Positions 1,846 through 14,347 of a stretch of 38,711 nt of DNA are shown here, one piece after another (the first letter of the stretch is position 1; each line of letters starts with the position of its first letter). The DNA is taken from contig JAFGNN010000080.1 of assembly GCA_016926955.1 (NCBI GenBank), positions 76,483-115,193 on the forward strand, in the 5' to 3' direction. Under the pieces are notes generated by a model, which made no database searches, had not been told where the DNA came from, and saw nothing but the letters and a program-made list of their open reading frames with translations. The position numbers and the translations under genes are program-made. Source of the stretch: Spirochaetales bacterium (GTDB taxonomy: Bacteria > Spirochaetota > Spirochaetia > Treponematales > UBA12059).

Positions 1846-3861
1846 ATGCACATAGATTTCGAAGCCGAGCTCAACCCCGAGCAGTACGAGGCCGTCACCG
1901 CGATGGACGGCCCGGTCCTCATCATCGCGGGCGCGGGTTCGGGGAAGACCCGCGTCATCACCTACCGCATGGCCTACATGCTCGAGAAGGGCGTGCCGCA
2001 GTCGGCCATCCTCGCGCTCACCTTCACCAACAAGGCTGCCCGCGAGATGGCCGAGCGCGTCAAGTCGCTGACCAAGCGCAAGCTCCAGAACCTGACCGTC
2101 TCCACCTTCCACGCCTTCGGCGTCAAGATCCTCCGCAAGGAGATCGAGCGCCTCGGCTGGCGCGAGAACTTTTCCATATATGACGAATCCGACCGGAACC
2201 AGCTGATCAAGGACTGCGCGCGCGAGCTCGGCTTCAAGCTCGAGACCTTCGACGTGCAGGCCGCGGGCAAGGTTTTTTCCGACGTCAAGACGCGACGTGT
2301 CGCGTGGACGGGCGAGGACGCGTACGAGAAGGTCTACCGGGAATACGAGGCCTCGCTCAAGGCCTTCAACTCGGTCGACTTCGACGACCTCATCGTCAAG
2401 CCCATCGAGGTGTTCGAGCGCTTCCCCGAGGCGCGCGCGGCATGGCGCGATCACTACCGCTACGTCATGATCGACGAGTTTCAGGACACCTCGCACATAC
2501 AGTACGAACTGATGCGCCACCTCTCGGACGACAACGTCTGCGCGGTAGGGGACGACGACCAGTCCATCTACTCCTGGCGCGGCGCCAACTACGAGAACAT
2601 CGTCCGCTTCGAGAAGGACTGGCCGCGGGTGCGCGAGATCAAGCTCGAGCGCAACTACCGCTCCACCGGCACCATACTCGAGGCGGCCAACGCGGTCATC
2701 GCCAACAACTCCAACCGCAAGGAGAAGGCGCTCTGGTCGCCGACCGGCATCGAGGGCGCGCCCATCCAGCTCTTCCGTCCCGAGGACGAGGTGGCGGAGG
2801 GCGAGTTCATCGCGCGCTCAATAAAGGAACAAAAGCTCAAGGAACGCCTCGCGTACTCCGATTTCGGGGTGCTGATCCGCACGAACGCGCTTACGCGCTG
2901 GGTGGAGGAGGGGCTGCTCGCGGAGAACGTGCCGTACAAGGTCACCGGCGGCACGAGCTTCTTCCAGCGCAAGGAGATCAAGGACATCATCTCCTACCTC
3001 CGCGTCATCGCGAACCCCGAGGACGACGTCAACTTCATCCGCATCGTCAACGTGCCGCGGCGCGGCATCGGAAGGCGCACGCTCGAGCGCCTCGGGGAGC
3101 TGGCCAAGGAGCGGGGACTCTCGCTGCACAAGACTGCCGAGCTCGTGCGCGCCAACCCCGCCATGGAGCTGCCTGAAAAGGCGCGCGGCGACCTGGAGGA
3201 ATTCCTCGAGCTCGTCGAGAGCTTCCGGGCGGAGATGCTCGGAAGGCGGAACCTGGCGGCGAAGGTCCGCGCCCTGCTCGAGGCCATCGACTACCGCGCC
3301 TGGCTCGTCGCCGACAACCTGCACAACGAAAAAGCCGCCAAGTGGAAGCTCCTCAACGTCGAGAGCCTGGTGAACGGCATCGACGTGTGGGAGAAGGACC
3401 CGGACAACCACGACCCGACCCTGTTCTCCTGGCTCAACCGCATCTCGCTCATCACGCGCGACGACATGGACGACGAGGAGGACTCGGGCAAGGTCAACCT
3501 GATGACCGTGCATGCCGCCAAGGGGCTCGAGTTCGAGATGGTCTACATCGCGGGCTGCGAGGACGGCATCATGCCGCACGCGCGCAGCCTCGAGGAGGGC
3601 GAGGGGAACCTCGAGGAGGAGCGGCGCCTCTTCTACGTGGCCGTTACGCGCGCGCGGCGCCGGCTGCACATCTCGGCGGCCATGCGCCGCCGCCGCAATT
3701 CCATGCCCGTGGACTGCGCGCCTTCGCCCTTCCTCGCGGAAATTCCCGAGAAGCTCGTCACCTGGTACGAGGGCGAGGGCGACCTGGCTCCCGACGACGC
3801 CGAGGACTTCTTCGCGAAAATGAACGCCATGTTCCCGGGAGAAGCCAAAGAGGAAGAGTAA
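1846..3861 (+). CDS. UvrD/Rep/PcrA-type 3'-5' DNA helicase
   Basis: This 671-aa superfamily 1A helicase unwinds DNA in replication restart or repair. Motifs appear in order: Q-motif LNPEQYEAV (9-17), Walker A AGAGSGKT (28-35), TFTNKAAREM (motif Ia), Walker B DEFQDTS (from 210), motif III QSIYSWRGAN (from 239), motif IV-like RNYRST, motif V TVHAAKGLEFE (from about 554) and motif VI VAVTRARRRL. At 671 aa it is the length of Rep and shorter than typical UvrD or PcrA (about 720 aa), with no recognisable C-terminal Tudor-like tail. Whether it acts as UvrD, PcrA or Rep cannot be told from the sequence. The gene ends right at the left edge of a palindromic repeat that separates it from a convergent gene. 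Confidence 0.93.
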   Translation: MHIDFEAELNPEQYEAVTAMDGPVLIIAGAGSGKTRVITYRMAYMLEKGVPQSAILALTFTNKAAREMAERVKSLTKRKLQNLTVSTFHAFGVKILRKEIERLGWRENFSIYDESDRNQLIKDCARELGFKLETFDVQAAGKVFSDVKTRRVAWTGEDAYEKVYREYEASLKAFNSVDFDDLIVKPIEVFERFPEARAAWRDHYRYVMIDEFQDTSHIQYELMRHLSDDNVCAVGDDDQSIYSWRGANYENIVRFEKDWPRVREIKLERNYRSTGTILEAANAVIANNSNRKEKALWSPTGIEGAPIQLFRPEDEVAEGEFIARSIKEQKLKERLAYSDFGVLIRTNALTRWVEEGLLAENVPYKVTGGTSFFQRKEIKDIISYLRVIANPEDDVNFIRIVNVPRRGIGRRTLERLGELAKERGLSLHKTAELVRANPAMELPEKARGDLEEFLELVESFRAEMLGRRNLAAKVRALLEAIDYRAWLVADNLHNEKAAKWKLLNVESLVNGIDVWEKDPDNHDPTLFSWLNRISLITRDDMDDEEDSGKVNLMTVHAAKGLEFEMVYIAGCEDGIMPHARSLEEGEGNLEEERRLFYVAVTRARRRLHISAAMRRRRNSMPVDCAPSPFLAEIPEKLVTWYEGEGDLAPDDAEDFFAKMNAMFPGEAKEEE

Positions 3862-4000: not shown

Positions 4001-4921
4001 TCAGCGGATCAGCAGCCAGGTGAGCTCGTGCTTGTTGTGCCATAGATGGAGCACGCGCGAACCGGGGATGGCGGCGAAGCGGTCGGCGGTCGCCTTGTCG
4101 AAGTCGGCGCCCTGCATCTTGATGGTGCAGACGAAGTTCCGGCCGAGTCCCGATTCGAGCCAGCGTTCCACCCATTCGAGAAGCCGCGGCGGGTAGCAGA
4201 TGACGTCGGAGCAGACCCAGTCCATCGGGCCGACATCATCGGGCTTCATCGCGAGGGCGTCCCCGATCCGGTGCTCGACGCCCGGCATGGCGGCCACGCG
4301 CGGATCGAGCTCCGCGCGGTCGACGGAAACCACCGTCGCGCCGAGGCCGGCGAGCGCCCAGGTCCAGCCGCCGGGCGCGCTGCCCGCGTCCAGGCAGCGC
4401 TCGCCCGCCTTTGGCAGCCGCCCCGCGAACACGAGGGCTTCCCAGATCTTGCGGTAGGCGCGGCTCGGCGGGCCTTCCCTGTCCTCCACGAATTTGAACT
4501 CGCCGTTCGGAAAGGGATTCGAACACTCCGCGCTGCCGAGGAGCAGGTGTTCGTCGACCAGCTGAAAGGTGCCCATCGGGGCCATCGGCAGCTCGAAGGG
4601 GAAGGCCTTGGGCTTTGTCGGCACGTGCGGCAGCTTTTCGGCGATCAATGCGGTGCGCCGGTGGAGGCGGGTCGGGAGCGGCGCCCAGTTGCGCTGCAGG
4701 CCCTTGAGCGCGCGGACGGCGTCGCCGATGGAGCCGAACTCGAGCAGGAAGGGCGCCCGCCAGACATTGCGCGTCCAGTAAGCCCGGCGTTCGGGTCCCG
4801 GCGCGAGCACGAGCTCGCCGTCGACGCGTTCCACCTCGCCAAGCTCGTCGAGCAGGTGGCCGAGGAAGCCGGGAGCCGCGTGGTAAGCCCTGGCGTCCAG
4901 GAAGCGGGGTTCGGCGCTCAC
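4001..4921 (-). CDS. RlmM/FtsJ-like SAM-dependent 2'-O-methyltransferase
   Basis: This 306-aa protein has a C-terminal Rossmann methyltransferase domain with the SAM motif CLDAGSAPGGWTWAL, then VVSVDRAELD, an acidic DWVCSDVICYPPRLLEW segment and a late lysine (CTIKMQGADFDK). This matches the K-D-K-E type arrangement of FtsJ/RlmM enzymes that methylate ribose 2'-OH, in RlmM at C2498 of 23S rRNA. The N-terminal half (about 1-150) would correspond to the RNA-binding region. I chose GTG at 4921, which overlaps the TGA of the upstream gene (GTGA), rather than an ATG at 4966 that would overlap it by 49 nt. The exact rRNA target is inferred. The stop codon is 10 nt from repeat copy 1. Confidence 0.8.
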   Translation of the reverse strand: MSAEPRFLDARAYHAAPGFLGHLLDELGEVERVDGELVLAPGPERRAYWTRNVWRAPFLLEFGSIGDAVRALKGLQRNWAPLPTRLHRRTALIAEKLPHVPTKPKAFPFELPMAPMGTFQLVDEHLLLGSAECSNPFPNGEFKFVEDREGPPSRAYRKIWEALVFAGRLPKAGERCLDAGSAPGGWTWALAGLGATVVSVDRAELDPRVAAMPGVEHRIGDALAMKPDDVGPMDWVCSDVICYPPRLLEWVERWLESGLGRNFVCTIKMQGADFDKATADRFAAIPGSRVLHLWHNKHELTWLLIR

Positions 4922-7806
4922 AGGAATTTGTACCGCTTGGCGGCTTCGAGGATGCCGCGGTTCCACGGATCCCGTTCGAGGAAGGAGGCCTTGACCGCCG
5001 GATCGTCGATGCGGCCGGCCCGTTCCTGCAGGTACTTGAAGCTGCGCGAAAGCATCGAGTGCTTGTCGAGGGGCGCGTCGGGCCGGTCCTCGAGCAGCAG
5101 GTAGCAGTAGTAGAAGTAGCGAATGAACTCCGGGCTCTCGTCCGAGATGCGCGATTCCCGCGTCATGGCGTGGATCTCGACGGCGGGAGTCGGGTCGTCC
5201 TCGGCCATGCCGCGCGCGAACAGGGCGAAGGCCCGCAGGAAGTCCTGGTCGGCGCTCCGTCCGTCACCGAAGCCGACACCCCTTCCTTCCAGCTGGCGGA
5301 ATCCGGAATCCCAGAAGATGGCGTCGCAGCCGCGATACTCGGCGTTCGGGAGGGCGGTGGCGCTCGCGGCGAGCTCGGTGGCCTCCCTGTGGCGCCCCTC
5401 CAGGAGCTCGAGCTCCGCGAGGAACCAGGCGGCTTCCGCGTCGCCCGCGTGCCGCGCTATCACCTCGCGGGCTTCCGGGCCCCGTCCGGCCCAAGCCAGG
5501 GCTCGTCCGGTCCAAATTTCAGCGCGCGCGGCGCAGCCGTCGAGCGAATACCTCGCGCCTATGAACGCGGCCCGCCGGTAGCGGAGCGTCGCCAGCTCGT
5601 AGCGGCCGAGCGCGAAATTCGCCCGACCCGCCGCGAACTCGAGCCAGGCTTCGTGGTCCTTGCGGAAGAGGGCGCGCGCGTGAGCCAAGCCCGAGTCCGC
5701 GGCCCTCAGCGCGCGCCACGCGTCGCCGGTGGTGAAGTTGGCGGCGACGGTTCCTTCCAATGCGGCCATGATCTCGAAATCGTCGTTCGAGCCTTCCGCA
5801 AGTTCGAGGGCGTTCCGGAGGTAGTCCAGGCCTTCCACCACCCGGCCCTGGCCGAGCGAGGCGAGTCCGAGCGCGCGGTGCGCCCGCGATTCGGCCTTCG
5901 GGCCGCAGGACCCGCGGGCGGCTATGAGCGCCCCTTTCGCCTTGATGGCGGCTTCCTTCGGATTGCGGAGGGCGTTCTGGTGCTCGGCCTCCATGAGTTC
6001 GAGAACTCCGTCGCCGATGCCCGCCCGGCCGAGGTCCCTGTAGGCGGCGAGCGCGGCCTGGGCGTTTTCGCGGTCGCCGAGGGCCTGCGCGGTCGCGAAG
6101 GCGCCGAGCAGGATGGCGGGGGCGAACGCGCCGCGGAGGGGCGGCGCGCGGCCCGGACGGTCGCGCTGGGCTTCGCCGTACGCGCACTCGAGGGGAAGGC
6201 CGCGGCGACCCGACTTTGCGGCGGACGCCGGCGAGAGGCTTTCGAGTGCGGCCAGGAAGCCGAGGTCCGCGGCCAGCCGGCCCCGACTATTGAGGAAAAT
6301 CAAGCGTTCCGCGAAAAGCTCGCGTATGCGGGCCGCGGGGCTTTCCGTCTCCTCCGTCGGCCCGCGGGCCGCCCGTTCGATATCGGAAGCCGTCATGTCC
6401 CCCGATATCCCGCCGTCCGCGTCGAGGAAGCCGAGGTCGAGGAGTATGCGGCGGACCAGGTTTCCCGCTTCCTCGTGCAGGCCGGCCCCCTCGAGGAACT
6501 CGTCGACTTCGCCCGGTCGCAGTATCCCCTCCGCGAGCGCGTACGCGTACAGGACCAGCGCGGCTTCGCGGGGCAGGAGCGAGAGGAGGGCGAAGGCCGC
6601 GCGTTCGTGACGCGGCGAGACCGCGGCCGGGTGGTTCCGCAAGGCGAGCGCCGCCCTGTGCCCGAGGGAGCGCAAGTCGCCCCGGGTCGCCCGGGCCAAT
6701 GCCTCCGCGTCCGCGATTCCGGCTTCCCCGATTTTCCGGGCGATCTCGTCCTCAGGCTCGGGCGCTAGCTCGACGACGGAGACCCGGGCGCGGCTCCAGA
6801 CTTCGGGAGGATCGCCCGATATGGTGCAGACGACGAGGGCCCGGCCCCGCTCGGCCAGGCTTCCCATGGCCTCGATCGCTTGAGGCGAGCACTTGTCAGC
6901 GTCGCGGAGGACCATGAGCGGCGGCAGGCCCGCCTCCGCGAGCGACGCGGCCAGGGCTTCGAGCGAAGCGCCGATCGAGGCCCCGAGCCCGGTCGTGAGC
7001 GTTTCGGAAAACATGGCCCTGAAAGGCGAAGCCAAGGCCGCCGCGCCGGCCTCCGCGAGCGTTTCGAGTTCGACGCGCTCGTCCTCCGTACCGGCGTCCA
7101 AGGCCTCGGGCGAGGCCGGCAGGGCTGCGAGGGGCAGGAGCGGCGCGAAGGGTCGGTCGGAACCGCGCCCGCGCCAGGCTGGAAAGGATGAGGGATCGTG
7201 GCCCAGCGAAGCGAGCGCGGCCTGGACGGCGGCGCCGCGACCGGATCCGGGCGGCCCCTTGAACGCGAGGATTCCGACGTCCGAGGCCAGGGCTTTCCGC
7301 AGGGCTTCGGCGGCGGCTTTCGTCGCCCCCGGGCGGGAGAGCAGCGCGCCGGCCTTCACGTTTTCGGGATTGTCGCGGTACGCGGGACCGACGACATGCC
7401 TGGGCGCCTCGCCCTCCCTGGTGGCGAGGTGGGCCGCGAGGGAAGGCAAGCCCTCAGCCGTGACGCGGACGCCGCCGGGCCCTTCGCTCGTAGCCCAGGC
7501 GCGGCGCAGTTCGCGGAAGCCGCGCTCCTCGTCGTCAGCCCGGTGGAGCAGGATCATGTAATCGTCGATGCCCCATGCGTCGTCCTCGAGGGTATCGCGG
7601 ATCCTGAAAGCCGCCTCCGCGGCCTGGATGCGCCAGAACAAGCCCTCCTCGTCAAAGACGAGCGCGAAAGGATCTTCGCGGGACAAGGCCTTTCCGGCGA
7701 AAGCCTCGCCGGCGGCACGGAGACGGGCCTGGAGCGCGGCCGCGCGACGCGGATCGACGCGCTTGTACTGCTGCCAGAAATCGATTTTGACGTAGACTAT
7801 GACCAT
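4918..7806 (-). CDS. Large degenerate ATPase with TPR-like C-terminal half
   Basis: This 962-aa protein is of unknown function. Residues 1-150 open with the strand VIVYVKIDFWQQY and later show RIRDTLEDDAWGIDDYMILLHRA and GVRVTAEGLPSLAAHLATRE, a layout faintly like a class III nucleotide cyclase domain without catalytic residues (inference). At about 180-400 is a P-loop NTPase-like domain with GPPGSGRGA in the Walker A position, lacking the invariant Lys and Ser/Thr, and LMVLRDADKCS as a possible Walker B. A helical region follows. From about residue 560 there are many Ala/Leu-rich helix pairs (KAESRAHRALGLASLGQGR, LEFAAGRANFALGRYELA) typical of TPRs. The overall shape resembles STAND-type signalling proteins. 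It is coupled to the methyltransferase gene by a 4-nt overlap. A clear signal peptide or membrane segment is absent. Confidence 0.7.
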   Translation of the reverse strand: MVIVYVKIDFWQQYKRVDPRRAAALQARLRAAGEAFAGKALSREDPFALVFDEEGLFWRIQAAEAAFRIRDTLEDDAWGIDDYMILLHRADDEERGFRELRRAWATSEGPGGVRVTAEGLPSLAAHLATREGEAPRHVVGPAYRDNPENVKAGALLSRPGATKAAAEALRKALASDVGILAFKGPPGSGRGAAVQAALASLGHDPSSFPAWRGRGSDRPFAPLLPLAALPASPEALDAGTEDERVELETLAEAGAAALASPFRAMFSETLTTGLGASIGASLEALAASLAEAGLPPLMVLRDADKCSPQAIEAMGSLAERGRALVVCTISGDPPEVWSRARVSVVELAPEPEDEIARKIGEAGIADAEALARATRGDLRSLGHRAALALRNHPAAVSPRHERAAFALLSLLPREAALVLYAYALAEGILRPGEVDEFLEGAGLHEEAGNLVRRILLDLGFLDADGGISGDMTASDIERAARGPTEETESPAARIRELFAERLIFLNSRGRLAADLGFLAALESLSPASAAKSGRRGLPLECAYGEAQRDRPGRAPPLRGAFAPAILLGAFATAQALGDRENAQAALAAYRDLGRAGIGDGVLELMEAEHQNALRNPKEAAIKAKGALIAARGSCGPKAESRAHRALGLASLGQGRVVEGLDYLRNALELAEGSNDDFEIMAALEGTVAANFTTGDAWRALRAADSGLAHARALFRKDHEAWLEFAAGRANFALGRYELATLRYRRAAFIGARYSLDGCAARAEIWTGRALAWAGRGPEAREVIARHAGDAEAAWFLAELELLEGRHREATELAASATALPNAEYRGCDAIFWDSGFRQLEGRGVGFGDGRSADQDFLRAFALFARGMAEDDPTPAVEIHAMTRESRISDESPEFIRYFYYCYLLLEDRPDAPLDKHSMLSRSFKYLQERAGRIDDPAVKASFLERDPWNRGILEAAKRYKFL

Positions 7807-7921: not shown

Positions 7922-7950
7922 TTGACGCGCATTTTTGCCGATGCTATCCT
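7922..7950 (+). promoter_or_regulatory. Promoter of the partner-switching operon
   Basis: TTGACG at 7922-7927 and TATCCT at 7945-7950 are spaced by exactly 17 bases. Transcription from about 7957 means that the upstream ATG at 7935 would not be in the mRNA. This fixes the phosphatase start at the ATG at 8025. Confidence 0.7.
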
Positions 7951-8024
7951 TTGCGGCGTTACCCGGGGCAGGCGGTCGCTGTCGGCGCGCGCGCATCCCT
8001 CACCATGCGTTCCGAAGGTTGGGC

Positions 8025-9965
8025 ATGACGATTCAGGACATCGCGAATCTCGTCCAGACCCCGCTGGCCGCCACGTTGTTCCTACACGTGGCGGTTCTCG
8101 CGCTTTTCCTCTATCTGCGCGGACGCGATACCGAAGGTTTCTCCACCGGGTTCATCGTCGCCATCGGCGTCTCGGCCCTGAGGGAGCTGCTTTTCGCCCT
8201 GCTGCCCGACCCTTCGCTGCTGTTCGTGTCCGATGTCGTGCTCTACTCGCTCACCATCCTGGTTTTCCTTGCTCCATACGGATCCTGGGCGACCATAATC
8301 CTCGCCTTGTCCCTCAACCTGCTTTTCGCCGGCTTCCGGATGGCCGATGCCCTGCTCGGCCTGGTGCCGTCCTTCCCGCACTGGGCTTGGCGCGGCCTGC
8401 TCCTTCTGGACGTAGCCGTTATCGTGGCCTTCGCGGCCATCAGGTCGCGGGACAGGGACACGGTCGGCAGGCAGGCCGTCCAGGCCTCGTGGCCCTGGGC
8501 CGCGGGCATCCTGTCCGCGTACGCGATCCTGTCCATGGTGCTCGACCCCGTCGGTCCCTGGTTCCGCAACCTTGTCTCGCCGATCCTGCTCGGCGCTTGG
8601 GGAGCCTTCGCGTTCGGGGCCGCGGCGATCTTCGAACGCCAAATCGTGCAGGCTCTCGACTACTACGAGGAATCCATCGATTCCCTCTACAACGTGTTCA
8701 TGAGCACCGCCTCCGAACTCAAGGAGAGCTTTTCGATGGACCGCATCCTCGACGCGATGTCGAGGACCATCACCTCGGAGACCGGGGCCGACGGCGGCAT
8801 GATCTTCCTGGTCGACGAGTTCGACGACGTCATCGTCGCGCGCGCATACTCCGGAAGCTTCCCGCCACCCTTCCCCCTGCCGGACAGCCTGCCCCGCAAG
8901 AGCCACCGGGTCGAATCCTACATGAAGCACGTCCAGTTCAAGCTGGGCGAGACCCTTTTCGGCGAGGTCGCGCGCACCGCCAAGCAGGTCTTCATCCCCG
9001 TGGCCGCGCTCGACGAGCGCGTCGCGAGGAACGGCGACGAGGATTTCCTCAGGCTCGCCAGCCTGATCGCCCTGCCGCTGCAGGTCGAGGACCGCGTCAT
9101 CGGCGTGCTTGCGCTCAGCCGCTCGGAACGTCCCTTCACGGAGCGCGACTTCGACCGCGCGAAACTCCTGGCCAACTTCGGCACCCTGTCCATCACGAAC
9201 TTCTTCGCCTTCATGGAGGCGCGCGAGAAAGGCGAGATCGAACGCGCGGCCGACATCGCCGCGGAGATACAGCGCGCCATCGTGCCGCGCAAGCTGCCCG
9301 ATTTCGCGGGAGCCTCGTTCGGCGCCTTCACCATCCCGGCCAAGGGCGTCTCCGGCGACTACTACGACGTCATCCAGACCCGGAGCGACAAGGTGGTCAT
9401 CGCCGTCGGCGATGTCGCCGGCAAGGGCGTGGCCGCCGGCCTGGTCATGGTGATGATCCGCTCGATCCTCCACCTGGTGACCAACACCAACCGCGACATT
9501 TCCACGGTGCTCACCTGGGTCAACCGGGGCATCACCGGAAAGATCGACATGGACCACTACGCGACGGTCAGCCTCGCGTCCGTGGACCTTTCGACGGGCG
9601 AGGTGGACTACGCGAACGCGGGCCACCAGCCCATGCTGGTCTACCGCAAGGCATCGGACGCCATCGAGACGCTCGAGATCAAGAGCGTGCCGCTCGGGGT
9701 CGAGCGCGTGACGGACTACCCGCAGCGGCGCGCGACGCTCGGGGATGGAGACATCGTGGTGCTCTACACCGACGGCCTCGTCGAGGCCATGAACGCGCAG
9801 GGCAAGCAATACGGCCGCAAGAATCTCGGCTCGATAGTCATGCGCAACCACGAACACCCGGCGAGGGAGATCGCGAACCGGATACAGCAGGACCTCGCGA
9901 ATTTCGTCGGGGCCGCGCGGCAGCATGACGACCAGACCGTACTCGTGATGAAGATGAAGCGATAG
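8025..9965 (+). CDS. Membrane-bound PP2C/SpoIIE-type serine phosphatase with GAF domain
   Basis: This 646-aa RsbU-like protein dephosphorylates an anti-sigma antagonist of the STAS family. About six to seven hydrophobic segments cover residues 15-210 and form a sensor-like membrane domain. A GAF-like domain follows at about 235-400 (DRILDAMSRTITSETGADGG onward). The PPM/SpoIIE catalytic domain is at about 420-645, with AAEIQRAIVPRKLP, the metal-binding SGDYYDV and GDVAGKG motifs, YANAGHQPMLVY, LYTDGLVEAMN and DDQTVLVMKMK. The ATG at 8025 has GAAGG at 8014-8018. The next two genes encode its likely substrate and the kinase. The signal sensed by the membrane part is unknown. Confidence 0.9.
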   Translation: MTIQDIANLVQTPLAATLFLHVAVLALFLYLRGRDTEGFSTGFIVAIGVSALRELLFALLPDPSLLFVSDVVLYSLTILVFLAPYGSWATIILALSLNLLFAGFRMADALLGLVPSFPHWAWRGLLLLDVAVIVAFAAIRSRDRDTVGRQAVQASWPWAAGILSAYAILSMVLDPVGPWFRNLVSPILLGAWGAFAFGAAAIFERQIVQALDYYEESIDSLYNVFMSTASELKESFSMDRILDAMSRTITSETGADGGMIFLVDEFDDVIVARAYSGSFPPPFPLPDSLPRKSHRVESYMKHVQFKLGETLFGEVARTAKQVFIPVAALDERVARNGDEDFLRLASLIALPLQVEDRVIGVLALSRSERPFTERDFDRAKLLANFGTLSITNFFAFMEAREKGEIERAADIAAEIQRAIVPRKLPDFAGASFGAFTIPAKGVSGDYYDVIQTRSDKVVIAVGDVAGKGVAAGLVMVMIRSILHLVTNTNRDISTVLTWVNRGITGKIDMDHYATVSLASVDLSTGEVDYANAGHQPMLVYRKASDAIETLEIKSVPLGVERVTDYPQRRATLGDGDIVVLYTDGLVEAMNAQGKQYGRKNLGSIVMRNHEHPAREIANRIQQDLANFVGAARQHDDQTVLVMKMKR

Positions 9966-9982: not shown

Positions 9983-10321
9983 ATGGAACTGAAGATCCGG
10001 AAGAACGGCGAGAACTATATCATCGACGTCAACGGGGAGATGGACCTCTACAACTCCTACAAGCTCAAGGAACTGGTCATGAAGATGCTCGAGAAAAAGG
10101 TCGAGCGCTTCATCATCAACCTCGAGAACGTTGACTACATCGATTCGAGCGGCATCGGCGCACTGATCTACATCTGCTCGACCATCAAGAAGATGAGCAT
10201 GAAGCTGATCATCACCAACATCCACGGATCGGTGAAGAAGGTCATCGAGCTGACCAAGCTGATGGGATACTTCCCGATCACCAACAGCATCGAGGAAGCC
10301 ATCCAGCAGATGGACGAGTGA
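9983..10321 (+). CDS. STAS-domain anti-sigma factor antagonist (RsbV/SpoIIAA-like)
   Basis: This 112-aa single STAS domain carries the phosphorylation loop IDSSGIGALIYI, with Ser55/Ser56 as candidate acceptors. Unphosphorylated protein of this class binds the GHKL kinase and frees that kinase's client. The phosphatase encoded 18 nt upstream and the kinase encoded immediately downstream should set its phosphorylation state. Compared with its neighbours it is richer in Lys and Ile, which fits a small soluble protein under codon constraint rather than transfer. No sigma factor gene follows. Confidence 0.9.
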   Translation: MELKIRKNGENYIIDVNGEMDLYNSYKLKELVMKMLEKKVERFIINLENVDYIDSSGIGALIYICSTIKKMSMKLIITNIHGSVKKVIELTKLMGYFPITNSIEEAIQQMDE

Positions 10322-10890
10322 GGCCCGCCGTGGAAAACACCTACCTCTCGGAGCTCAAGGAAATCAAGGTCGACGAGGGCAGCCCGCTCTTCGACAAGAC
10401 CAACATGTTCTACAAGGAATTCCCCTCGGACTTCCGGCAGATCCGCTACTTCACGCTGCTGATCGTCCAGACCGCGCCGCTCGAGATCAAGGAGATCAAC
10501 CTTCTCGAGCAGCAGATCTCGGAGATCATCAAGAACGCGGTCAAGCACGGCAACAAGTGCGACCCCGAGCGCAAGGTCCGCGTCTGGTATTCGTTCAGTC
10601 CCCAGCACGCCCATCTCGTGGTCCAGGACGAGGGCGACGGCTTCAAGGACCTCGAGAAGTGGAACGACTTCAACCGCAAGCGGCTTGAGCTCCTTTCCCG
10701 CCACGATTTCGAGAACCTTCAGGACTTCGTTTCCTACCGGACGCAGCTCTCCGACGACAACGACGGCGGCAACGCCCTCTTCGCGGCGCTCGAGTACTGG
10801 AACGGCGGCTTCGTGTTCAACACCAAGCGCAACGCCGTCGCCATGCTCAAGAAATACCCCCAGAAGCGCCAGGGCATCTCGGTGGAGTGA
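10318..10890 (+). CDS. GHKL-type serine kinase / anti-sigma-like protein (RsbW-like)
   Basis: This 190-aa protein has the HATPase_c_2 layout: an N-box QQISEIIKNAVKHGNK, a G1-box VVQDEGDGF and a late Gly-rich DNDGGNALFAAL segment. RsbW/SpoIIAB proteins phosphorylate STAS antagonists and sequester a partner. Here the N-terminus is about 50 residues longer than in classical RsbW, and the region between the G1 and G2 boxes holds an extra charged insertion. GTG at 10318 overlaps the TGA of the STAS gene. GTG at 10330 (M-ENTYLSELK), with TGAGG just upstream, is an equally good start. The client is not encoded next door. Confidence 0.8.
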   Translation: MRPAVENTYLSELKEIKVDEGSPLFDKTNMFYKEFPSDFRQIRYFTLLIVQTAPLEIKEINLLEQQISEIIKNAVKHGNKCDPERKVRVWYSFSPQHAHLVVQDEGDGFKDLEKWNDFNRKRLELLSRHDFENLQDFVSYRTQLSDDNDGGNALFAALEYWNGGFVFNTKRNAVAMLKKYPQKRQGISVE

Positions 10891-10907: not shown

Positions 10908-11018
10908 ACTACGGAGGCACGGAGCCACGGAGCAAAGAGGGAGAAAAATCGGGACTTTAAAAGTACCGGATATCCTCCCTCTTTCCTCCCGGTCTCCGTG
11001 CCTCCGTGGTTTCTTTTT
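10908..11018. repeat. NCACGGAG palindromic repeat, copy 2
   Basis: The left arm (from about 10909) has CTACGGAG, GCACGGAG, CCACGGAG and then a polypurine tract. The right arm (10976-11018) is polypyrimidine and ends CTCCGTGC, CTCCGTGG, TTTCTTTTT. It separates the convergent kinase and PilZ genes. The right end supplies the PilZ TAA stop codon. Confidence 0.85.
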
Positions 11019-12261
11019 ATCGTAATGGCGGGGGGAGGCCTTCGACGAGGTCGGCGTCGTTGTCGGTGAAGGGCCGGCCGTAGAGCAGCTCGAAGAGAAA
11101 GCGGAAATCCTCCGGTCCCATGTCGATGAATTCGAGACCGTAGAAGTCGTCGCCGCGTTCCCGTATCCGCCGCTTGACGGCTGCCCCGGTCCGGATGGTC
11201 CTGCGGGCGGTGGACAGCTCCACCTGGATGTAGGAATCCTCCGCGAGTGCGCGGGCGAGGATGGGATCGCGGCTGGCGAAGAGTACGCCGCCCGCGGAAA
11301 GGTCGACCACCTCCGCCTTGTAGCCTCCCGCGCGCTTGGGGGCGCCGCGGAAGTAGCCGGAGTTGTTGAGCGACCACGCGAACACGCGGGTGAACTGGAT
11401 CCAGGTGTCCAACACGCCCAGGTCGTATGGCGCCCGTCCCGCCTGCCGGTTCGTCAGACGCACCGAACCGATCACGTACTCCTGGAAGACAATGGGCGCG
11501 AGTATCTCCGAGAGTATGCCGGCGTTGCGCTTCTGCCGCTCGAAACGCGTCAGTTCCTCCTCGACGAAGTCGGGATCCGCTCCTTCCGCGGCGAAAAACT
11601 CGCGGAAGTCGTCGCGCACGAGGATGCGGGGCCTCGGGAACGGGTCGATCTCGGGAACGCCCGAGTAGGGAGTCGGCAGGAAGAAGGCCCGACCGGTGCG
11701 TATCGCCGCCCGCTCCTCGATCGTGGAGGGTTCGCGGTCCTTGTACATGACGATGGAACGATCGCTCGCGATCTCCGAGGCGCGGCGCTCGAAGTCCTTG
11801 ACGAGGCCGCGAAGGTCCGCCGGATCGAAGTCTTTGGAGAGAACCGGTTCCGCGACGGGGTCGAAGGCCTGGGTGGTCGGAAAATCGAGGGCGTAGCGTT
11901 CGCCTCCGAAGCTCAGGGCGGCCTTGAGGCCGGGCGGAGCCGAGGCGCGGGCGAAGCGCCGGCTCAGGTTCTTCCACACCTCCTCCGGGACGGCGAGCGT
12001 GAAGGCGCCGGCCTTCGCGAGGGAAACCGTGGACCGAAAGGCTACGGTCTGGCCGCGCGCGACGAAGCGGACCGAGCATTCCTCGCCCTTCCGGAGGACG
12101 CGGCGCGCTGGATCGACACTGAAGGACACGCTTCGGTCGTCGTAGGCGGCCAGGCGCGCCTCGAACTCGCCGTCGGCGGCGTTGATCGAGATGGGCGCCC
12201 TCTCCGAGATGGCCGATTCGAGGAGGATGTCCCGTTCGACCAGCTTGACTGCGAAAGCCAT
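11017..12261 (-). CDS. PilZ-domain protein, probable c-di-GMP effector
   Basis: This 414-aa soluble protein has a C-terminal PilZ-like domain at about residues 300-405: PKRAGGYKAEVVDLSAGGVL, then a hydrophobic strand pattern and RERGDDFYGLEFIDM. PilZ domains bind c-di-GMP through RxxxR and (D/N)xSxxG motifs. The second motif (DLSAGG) is intact, while the first appears as R-AGGY-K, so binding could be weakened. The N-terminal 110 residues form a beta-rich domain comparable to the YcgR/PilZ-N type (inference). The middle part is unassigned. A TAGGAT -10-like box lies 6 nt upstream of the ATG. It is preceded on the same strand by a lipoprotein gene 23 nt away. Confidence 0.75.
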   Translation of the reverse strand: MAFAVKLVERDILLESAISERAPISINAADGEFEARLAAYDDRSVSFSVDPARRVLRKGEECSVRFVARGQTVAFRSTVSLAKAGAFTLAVPEEVWKNLSRRFARASAPPGLKAALSFGGERYALDFPTTQAFDPVAEPVLSKDFDPADLRGLVKDFERRASEIASDRSIVMYKDREPSTIEERAAIRTGRAFFLPTPYSGVPEIDPFPRPRILVRDDFREFFAAEGADPDFVEEELTRFERQKRNAGILSEILAPIVFQEYVIGSVRLTNRQAGRAPYDLGVLDTWIQFTRVFAWSLNNSGYFRGAPKRAGGYKAEVVDLSAGGVLFASRDPILARALAEDSYIQVELSTARRTIRTGAAVKRRIRERGDDFYGLEFIDMGPEDFRFLFELLYGRPFTDNDADLVEGLPPPLR

Positions 12262-13102: not shown

Positions 13103-14347
13103 GTGCCGCCCATCCCCGCAGCGCTTGCCATCGATCTCTCCGATCCTGTCCGCGACCCGATCTGGCATCACATCTACCTGCCGCGGGGGTTCAGGGCCGT
13201 CATCGAAGCCCCCGATTTCATGAAGCTCGCCGGCATCCGGCAGCTCGGTCCGGCCTGGCTCGCCTATCCGGGCGCCACGCATACGCGCTACAGCCATTCC
13301 CTCGGCGTCCTCGAGATGGCGCGCCGCCTGCTGTCGAGCCTGGCGGGCCGGGTCGAGCTCGATTTCCTCACGGACGAAGGCGTCAGATCCTTTCTCGTCG
13401 CGTCGCTCTGCCACGACGTCGGCCACTTTCCCTGGGCGCACTCGCTGAAGGAGCTGCCGCTCGTCGACCACGAGGTCCTGACGGGCCGGGCGCTCGGAGA
13501 AGGAGAGCTGCGCGAAGCGGTCCTGGCCGCGGGCGCCGACCCCGATCGGGCGGCGGCGATCGTCGACTCGGAGCGTGGCGGCGCGGACCGGGAGACCCTG
13601 TTCTACCGGGGCCTCCTCTCGGGCGTGCTGGACCCGGACAAGCTCGACTACCTGAACCGCGACGCCTACTTCTGCGGCGTGCCCTACGGCCTCCAGGACG
13701 CCGATTTCGCCCTTTCCCGCCTGGCCCTGGCGCCCGGCGACCGGCTCGCCGTCGACGCGCGCGGCGTCATGTCGGTCGAAGCCGTGCTTTTCTCGAAGTA
13801 CCTCATGTACCGCGCCGTGTACTGGCACCGAACCGTCCGGTCGGCAACCGCCATGGTCAAGAAGGCGGTCTCGGGCGCACTGGCGGCAGGGCGACTGCCC
13901 GCAGAAGGTCTCTACGGTCTCGATGACGCCGGTTTCGTCAGGCTCGCGCTCTCCATCGGCGGCGCGGAGGCGGCCCTCGTCGAGCGGGTGGTGGAGGGCC
14001 GTCCCTATCGCGCCATCTTCGACGAGCCTTTCGACGCTGACTCGCCGGCGTCGCCGCGCCTGCTCGACCTGGCGCGACGCGCGGAGTTCGAGGAGGACTT
14101 GTCGCGGCGGCTCTCCACGGCGACGCGGCGGATGCGACCCGAGGATGTCGTCGTTGACGTGCCCGAGCCCGTGAGCTTCGAGACCGAGCTGCCCGTGGTC
14201 GGTGACAGCCGCGAGGCCGGCACCGTGTTCGGACCCGACGCGTCGAAAGCCTTCTCGCGTTCGCTCCGGCGCATCCGCGTGCTGGCGCGCGAGGGGGATG
14301 ACGGCGACGAGGCCGCTGTCAGGGCCGCTCTCGAAACGCTCGCGTGA
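13103..14347 (+). CDS. HD-superfamily phosphohydrolase (COG1078-like)
   Basis: This 414-aa protein shows the metal-binding pattern of HD-domain dNTPase-like enzymes: an early TRYSHSLGVLEMARRL segment, the HD pair in LCHDVGHFPWAHSLK, then DHEVLTGRAL and a late LDYLNRDAYFCGVPYGL motif. This arrangement is typical of the COG1078 group related to SAMHD1 and bacterial dGTPases. The substrate is most likely a nucleotide but is not fixed by sequence. The GTG start at 13103 is preceded by AAGGAG (13091-13096). The gene diverges from the lipoprotein gene and overlaps the next gene by 4 nt. Confidence 0.88.
   Translation: MPPIPAALAIDLSDPVRDPIWHHIYLPRGFRAVIEAPDFMKLAGIRQLGPAWLAYPGATHTRYSHSLGVLEMARRLLSSLAGRVELDFLTDEGVRSFLVASLCHDVGHFPWAHSLKELPLVDHEVLTGRALGEGELREAVLAAGADPDRAAAIVDSERGGADRETLFYRGLLSGVLDPDKLDYLNRDAYFCGVPYGLQDADFALSRLALAPGDRLAVDARGVMSVEAVLFSKYLMYRAVYWHRTVRSATAMVKKAVSGALAAGRLPAEGLYGLDDAGFVRLALSIGGAEAALVERVVEGRPYRAIFDEPFDADSPASPRLLDLARRAEFEEDLSRRLSTATRRMRPEDVVVDVPEPVSFETELPVVGDSREAGTVFGPDASKAFSRSLRRIRVLAREGDDGDEAAVRAALETLA

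Follow-up and report, generated by a model that had tools for sequence, protein, structure and literature searches.

A minus-strand gene in the stretch of Spirochaetales DNA analysed here (38,711 nucleotides; GenBank assembly GCA_016926955.1, contig JAFGNN010000080.1, positions 76,483 to 115,193 of the forward strand; hereafter the window) encodes a 962-residue protein that is a derivative of the cyclase–AAA_16–tetratricopeptide repeat (TPR) type. Both of its enzyme sites are degenerate, and it is kept by selection and stands in a recurrent gene neighbourhood. On balance, we favour the view that it descends from a soluble-adenylyl-cyclase (sAC)-type protein, that the cyclase residues were lost and the P-loop was lost repeatedly, and that the protein now serves as a scaffold tied to PilZ and partner-switch genes. 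After this suggested role, we refer to it below as the scaffold protein.

Gene and family

The open reading frame (ORF) at 4918-7806, already called in a first-pass annotation of the sequence, proved to be real and lies on the minus strand, with an ATG at 7806 and a TGA stop at 4920-4918. M1 is invariant in a 25-row alignment of relatives, which supports the start codon. A single-sequence search recovered the family in 32 of 39 relatives (own genome counted). With a profile, 110 of 295 Spirochaetia genomes were positive, or 94 of 273 when only those of high quality are counted; four of the 110 positives (G035, G040, G204 and G297) matched only at E values above 1e-5. The 88 aligned rows behind the residue counts given below were drawn from 30 loci at order level and 58 at class level, a subset of the 110 positive genomes. 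One locus with an in-frame TGA (L101) was excluded from these rows and two further members of family f3 (L034 and L036) were not aligned; L032 and L040 are close relatives, and many of the fetched regions end at contig ends.

The N-terminal cyclase-like domain

The first-pass annotation had described the N-terminal 150 residues or so as a decayed cyclase fold, a reading that was borne out by profile-profile comparison and not by Pfam on the single sequence. A profile of residues 1-165 (87 rows) was compared with 30 class III cyclase domains and 30 GGDEF domains from the same class. Using hhalign, it scored 79.8% with the cyclases (E 1.5e-5); reversed controls gave 0.3% for the cyclases and 5.1% for GGDEF, and the family's own NTPase and TPR regions reached 0.3-1.3% with the cyclase profile. 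With the first comparison sets, which kept 12 of the 30 cyclases and 23 of the 30 GGDEF domains and on which the column shuffles were made, the real profile scored 68.6% with the 12 cyclases versus at most 0.5% in ten column-shuffled controls. Adding two proteins from outside the class (L219 and L221, described below; 32 cyclases, full length) gave 84.6% in the local alignment (E 6.8e-6, 161 columns) and 71.5% in the global one. These comparisons indicate that residues 1-165 are homologous to the class III cyclase fold. Pfam saw no cyclase domain at the N-terminus of the window protein alone, and no cyclase family was present among the best 25 of 27 Pfam families at E ≤ 1 (25 members) or among the best 25 of 29 at E ≤ 0.01 (38 members).

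Position 7, which aligns with the first metal Asp of the FADIxGF motif, is D in 3/88 members and K in the window, and position 45, which aligns with the second metal Asp, is D in 17/88, the window included. A loose search for a GDxxNxASR-type motif, in which N or A was allowed, found it in none of the 88 members versus 30 of 32 cyclases. Judged from these counts, the metal Asp pair and the Asn/Arg transition-state residues appear to be lacking.

The P-loop domain

The middle of the protein is related to AAA_16. In the window protein this family matches residues 165-322 below its cut-off (E 0.016); it passes the gathering score in two relatives, L097 and L113, and among 38 members from across the class 11 match it at E ≤ 0.01. 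The family nSTAND3 lies just above its cut-off in L119. Moreover, the profile alignment continues past the NTPase through the probable winged-helix region into AAA_16 proteins. Based on these matches, we regard the domain as homologous to AAA_16/STAND NTPases and a winged helix after it as probable.

As first annotated, the Walker A position (residues 184-192) reads GPPGSGRGA, with the Lys and the Ser/Thr replaced, and this disabled P-loop in a STAND/AAA_16-like middle part found support. It is not a sequencing error, because two same-genus sequences read GPAGSGRGAA at the same place. The window protein lacks GxxxxGK[ST] (GPPGSGRG) as well as a Walker B of the form hhhhD[DE], residues 297-304 being LMVLRDAD; the acidic pair occurs in 12/88 members. 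Across the alignment, Walker A takes the form GxxxxGK[ST] in 6 members, GxxxxGK in 14 and GxxxxGR in 7, and none of these in 61.

A quick tree was built from 86 rows of the C-terminal half, with L038 and L060 dropped as short and long branches flagged. On it, the presence of GK changed at least 11 times and that of GK[ST] at least 4 times, counts that do not separate gain from loss. The first-pass annotation had held that homologues with an intact P-loop at this position would point to recent loss only. Such homologues exist (6/88), but recent loss is not a sufficient explanation, because the P-loop states are scattered over the tree. Since the family appears homologous to intact AAA_16 proteins, repeated loss is the likelier reading. 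Of the proposed STAND-like scaffold without ATP hydrolysis, the degenerate P-loop therefore stands, and the loss of hydrolysis is what we infer from it.

One member (L056:7816-7950, genome G004) carries a perfect 18-bp tandem repeat (7.5 copies, 100% identity) within the NTPase region, encoding TASTLG repeats; it shows that this region tolerates insertion.

It is unlikely, in our view, that the nucleotide switch persists, with a P-loop that would bind ATP/ADP without the Lys in a locked or slow-exchanging STAND protein from which hydrolysis alone was lost. The co-occurrence of GKT and an hhhDD Walker B in three members (L113, L119 and L133), the GxxGTGK[EK] of genus g9 in the window's own family and the purifying selection on the NTPase part (see below) would all fit such a switch, whereas the 61/88 members without even a GxxxxG[KR] frame and the L056 repeat inside the domain speak against it.

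The TPR half and selection

That the C-terminal half is TPR-like and helical, as initially annotated, is supported by Pfam TPR matches in the relatives: among 25 members, TPR_2 (18/25), TPR_12 (16/25) and TPR_MalT (13/25) were found at E ≤ 1, and TPR_12 reached E ≤ 0.01 in 28 of 38 members. TPR matches in the window protein itself fall below the cut-off. The C-terminal block includes four residues that are invariant over 25 rows (S920, Q927, W948 and A956). A profile search of the PDB returned dynein docking subunit 4 and five other entries at E < 0.01, these five being named TPR protein 29 or Rap phosphatase F, the latter of which we take to be a TPR protein. Matches to Elp5 in the PDB were weak (E 0.76 and above) and were not used.

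Ratios of nonsynonymous to synonymous substitution rates (dN/dS) were calculated for three pairs from three same-genus sequences; they are rough, given the dS of 0.68-1.05 that separates the window from its relatives. They amount to 0.13-0.14 in the TPR part, 0.15-0.26 in residues 351-560, 0.14-0.28 in the N-terminus and 0.25-0.41 in the NTPase part. Purifying selection acts on every part, least strongly on the NTPase part, whose ratio exceeds the other three in each pair; in both pairs that include the window, the TPR part has the lowest ratio. This ranking, like the repeat insertion tolerated in the NTPase part, would also be expected if the protein were simply a TPR adaptor, with 400 N-terminal residues that have no function and are decaying. 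However, Q13 of the pseudo-cyclase is retained in 81/88 members, and the ratios in the pseudo-cyclase and the NTPase part are themselves those of selected sequence; we consider such an adaptor quite improbable.

Relatives outside the class

A broader profile matched 55 of 149 genomes across the phylum at E ≤ 0.001. In the 37 of these that lie outside the class, the matches are only partial (best E 2.5e-13), so that the full family looks confined to Spirochaetia within this sample. Six outside loci were fetched and five of them scanned with Pfam; one (L222) gave no match in the Pfam scan at E 1e-4. Among the best outside matches are L219 and L221 (1068 and 1045 aa), which have Guanylate_cyc above the cut-off together with AAA_16 (just under the cut-off in L219, above it in L221), an intact P-loop and both metal Asp residues. 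Positions 118-561 of the family profile align collinearly with L219; the match begins in the last stretch of its cyclase, takes in GEAGIGKT and continues beyond the NTPase.

Two further outside proteins, L220 and L224, match the family profile from positions 157 and 165, respectively. Both come from other Spirochaetota classes and are protein kinase–AAA_16 proteins with GAF, L220 of 1604 aa (truncated where the fetched region stops), which has TPR and PAS domains in addition, and L224 of 1763 aa. Because L224 ends in SpoIIE, this output domain is also found fused to a STAND-type NTPase. As such kinase–AAA_16 proteins match too, the NTPase and the region following it form a generic STAND-like unit, and it is the N-terminus that points to the cyclase type.

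Gene neighbourhood

The features of the window that bear on the scaffold protein are listed in Table 1. As first annotated, the start of its gene overlaps nothing upstream: the divergent SpoIIE gene on that side has its ATG at 8025, across a gap of 218 bp. This gap holds a promoter-like sequence (7922-7950), TTGACG-17-TATCCT, whose second hexamer is preceded by TG; it is oriented toward the SpoIIE gene and is the only such match there (shuffle mean 0.1).

Table 1. Scaffold protein, its putative domains and neighbouring genes in the window; locus counts refer to relatives.
Feature	Coordinates	Strand	Basis
Pseudo-cyclase/degenerate P-loop/TPR protein, 962 aa	4918..7806	-	ORF and translation; class-wide family; dN/dS < 1 in all parts
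Predicted degenerate class III cyclase domain, residues 1-165	7312..7806	-	hhalign against class III cyclase domains
Predicted P-loop NTPase (AAA_16/STAND-like), residues 161-410, approximate bounds	6577..7326	-	AAA_16 matches
Walker A position GPPGSGRGA, residues 184-192	7231..7257	-	Translation; 88-row alignment
TPR half with most conserved C-terminal block, residues 561-962	4918..6126	-	Pfam TPR in relatives; conservation
FtsJ/RlmM-like methyltransferase, GTG start in scaffold stop codon	4001..4921	-	FtsJ, E 4.4e-7, over cut-off
GAF and SpoIIE phosphatase, divergent from scaffold	8025..9965	+	Pfam on ORF 7935-9965; upstream, opposite strand in 30/31 loci
STAS domain protein	9983..10321	+	Pfam; upstream, opposite strand in 36/37 loci
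HATPase_c_2 (RsbW-like) protein	10318..10890	+	Pfam; upstream, opposite strand in 41/42 loci
PilZ protein, YcgR-GAZ kind	11017..12261	-	PilZ, E 3e-6, over cut-off; upstream, same strand in 40/40 loci
HD/HD_assoc_2 phosphohydrolase	13103..14347	+	Pfam; upstream, opposite strand in 35/36 loci

Neighbours were counted at the 88 loci, many of which are cut by contig ends. These wider neighbours go beyond what the first-pass annotation had mentioned. A YcgR-GAZ-like PilZ gene is present at 40/88 loci and spans 16 family codes when the window is assigned to f1; HATPase occurs at 42 loci, STAS at 37, HD at 36 and SpoIIE at 31; in addition, a small PilZ gene occurs at 17 loci, always upstream on the opposite strand. 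In the usual layouts, PilZ stands immediately before the scaffold gene or a divergent SpoIIE–STAS–HATPase set lies between them, as in the window. The locus L113 (f38, intact P-loop) has SpoIIE, STAS and HATPase downstream on the same strand rather than upstream and divergent. In family f5, 5/9 loci have another gene beside the scaffold gene, its product predicted from sequence and presumably ornithine carbamoyltransferase-like. Two f5 contigs (G031:C1 and G298:C1) have a same-strand PilZ gene 8-11 kb upstream of the scaffold gene, beyond the region in which neighbours were counted.

Co-occurrence over the 295 genomes was assessed by heuristic first-look searches, with cut-offs of E ≤ 1e-20 for PilZ and E < 1e-40 for the methyltransferase. 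PilZ and scaffold genes are both present in 66 genomes, the scaffold gene only in 44, PilZ only in 10 and neither in 175 (odds ratio 26, p 1.7e-25, kinship ignored), and in 42 of the 66 genomes with both the two are adjacent according to a by-eye list. In the PilZ alignment (20 rows), R101, R105, S322 and G325 occur in 20/20 and D320 in at least 90%, so the upstream PilZ gene has the RxxxR and [DN]xSxxG motifs of the YcgR-GAZ kind. The GAF-like insertion DUF1577 was found in the L091 protein (25.8 bits, cut-off 25); for the window protein, no match to it was reported at E ≤ 0.01.

Downstream, the first-pass annotation had placed the start of an rRNA methyltransferase in the stop codon of the scaffold gene, and the GTG at 4921-4919 indeed overlaps the TGA as GTGA. 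The methyltransferase scores 65.8 bits against the NCBIfam RlmM model NF008734, below its cut-off of 176, and matches the RlmM structure 4atn in the PDB at E 1.5e-4. The proposed coupling of the two genes is real in the window's lineage, with the GTGA junction and a shared operon in f1 and f4, but it is local: the methyltransferase adjoins the scaffold gene at 21/88 loci, always downstream on the same strand and only in f1 and f4, and L038, L055 and L060, the f1 loci that lack it, are cut at the contig end. Genome-wide, 27 genomes have both genes, 83 the scaffold gene only, 47 the methyltransferase only and 138 neither (odds ratio 0.96, Fisher p 0.89, kinship ignored). A general partnership was rejected on this random co-occurrence and the restricted adjacency, and the shared operon with an RlmM-like methyltransferase is a lineage-specific arrangement of f1 and f4. 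Also quite improbable is a functional unit in which the scaffold protein would sense a state and control 2'-O-methylation of 23S rRNA, for which the overlap and the 21 adjacent loci argue, and against which stand, besides the odds ratio, the 83/110 scaffold genomes without a strong methyltransferase match, two f5 genomes that carry both genes far apart on one contig (G034 and G031) and the differing identities, 52-69% for the methyltransferase in f4 and in f1 outside the window's genus, roughly double the 20-35% of the scaffold protein.

Past the methyltransferase, on the other strand, lie a MiaA-like isopentenyl pyrophosphate (IPP) transferase (453-1277) and a UvrD/Rep helicase (1846-3861).

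Proposed role

Because both enzyme domains are degenerate and the protein is nevertheless kept, often near PilZ and partner-switch genes, its conservation suggests a scaffold function, and the neighbours suggest partners and a direction of signalling. Under the favoured descent from a sAC-type protein, the ancestor would have combined a class III cyclase, an AAA_16/STAND NTPase with winged helix and TPRs. Across Spirochaetia, the cyclase catalytic residues would have been lost and the P-loop lost repeatedly, leaving a conserved scaffold with the TPR half as its most conserved part. The TPR half and the invariant C-terminal block may hold a fixed partner, the pseudo-cyclase could form a dimerising or ligand-sensing lid, and nucleotide binding would be optional. 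Going by the gene neighbours, the scaffold might pass the state of a YcgR-GAZ-like PilZ protein, as cyclic di-GMP (c-di-GMP) receptor, on to the adjacent SpoIIE–STAS–HATPase partner switch, or signal the other way round. We propose only tentatively that the doubly inactivated sAC-like protein is a Spirochaetia-wide hub that couples c-di-GMP reception to this partner switch.

Several observations weigh against this account. The N-terminus could belong to the wider palm-cyclase superfamily, because the comparison of residues 1-165 with the 30 GGDEF domains scored 53.5%. The first metal position is E in 32/88 members, and 6/88 combine D or E at position 7 with D at 44 or 45. L219 and L221 themselves have Ala in place of the catalytic Asn, a single-sequence phmmer search of these two against the family returned nothing at E 1e-3, and the NTPase and the next region also match the kinase–AAA_16 proteins. 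In one of the three pairs, dN/dS of the N-terminus (0.135) is as low as that of the TPR part (0.143). AlphaFold2 with three sequences (the window protein, L031 and L032) gave no usable model of the full protein (confidence score pLDDT 41.9, predicted template modelling score (pTM) 0.23) or of residues 1-165 (pLDDT 42.3, pTM 0.31). The partnership with PilZ, STAS, HATPase and SpoIIE is read from gene order, and any physical interaction is putative; 20/88 loci have no searched neighbour, including all four f3 and nine f5 loci. A PilZ match at E ≤ 1e-20 is missing from 44 of the 110 scaffold genomes, and 10 PilZ genomes carry no scaffold gene.

If the proposal is true, a receptor enzyme has been turned into a cross-messenger scaffold, stripped of cyclic AMP synthesis and mostly of ATP binding. 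A sAC-type protein would have persisted throughout a bacterial class despite the failure of both enzyme domains, and relatives with an intact P-loop are available for comparison. In spirochaetes, c-di-GMP would be tied to partner-switch regulation in a way that can be tested. An unnamed TPR protein, which seems to occur even in the reduced genome of Treponema pallidum, would gain a hypothesis about its role. Among the titles and abstract openings listed from the open-licence literature, from which subscription papers are mostly absent, none dealt with this protein family or locus.

Comparison with known systems

YcgR-GAZ proteins are PilZ proteins of spirochaetes, and one from Leptospira binds c-di-GMP (PMC11800159). 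According to a figure legend of that paper, flagellar genes are rare near its members; SpoIIE, STAS and tetratricopeptide do not occur as words in its main text, where a scaffold neighbour goes unmentioned. In our loci, the likeness to YcgR-GAZ belongs to the upstream neighbour and not to the scaffold protein, with PilZ in the window and PilZ plus DUF1577 in L091.

The family member in genome G032 (143133-145565) is presumably tp0123 of T. pallidum, an assignment for which its position is among the grounds. The published entry for tp0123 calls it hypothetical and gives it TPR domains (PMC2217670).

With STAND/AAA_16–TPR NTPases such as MalT/LAL and the kinase–AAA_16 proteins, the scaffold protein shares an AAA_16 domain followed by a probable winged helix and TPRs. 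Unlike them, it has a pseudo-cyclase N-terminus, and Walker A is absent in most members.

ADCY10 has the architecture class III cyclase–AAA_16/P-loop–TPR. The scaffold protein differs from this soluble adenylyl cyclase type in the missing metal Asp and Asn/Arg residues, the mostly lost P-loop and the class-specific C-terminal block, whereas the domain order is common to both and the profile alignment with L219 is collinear.

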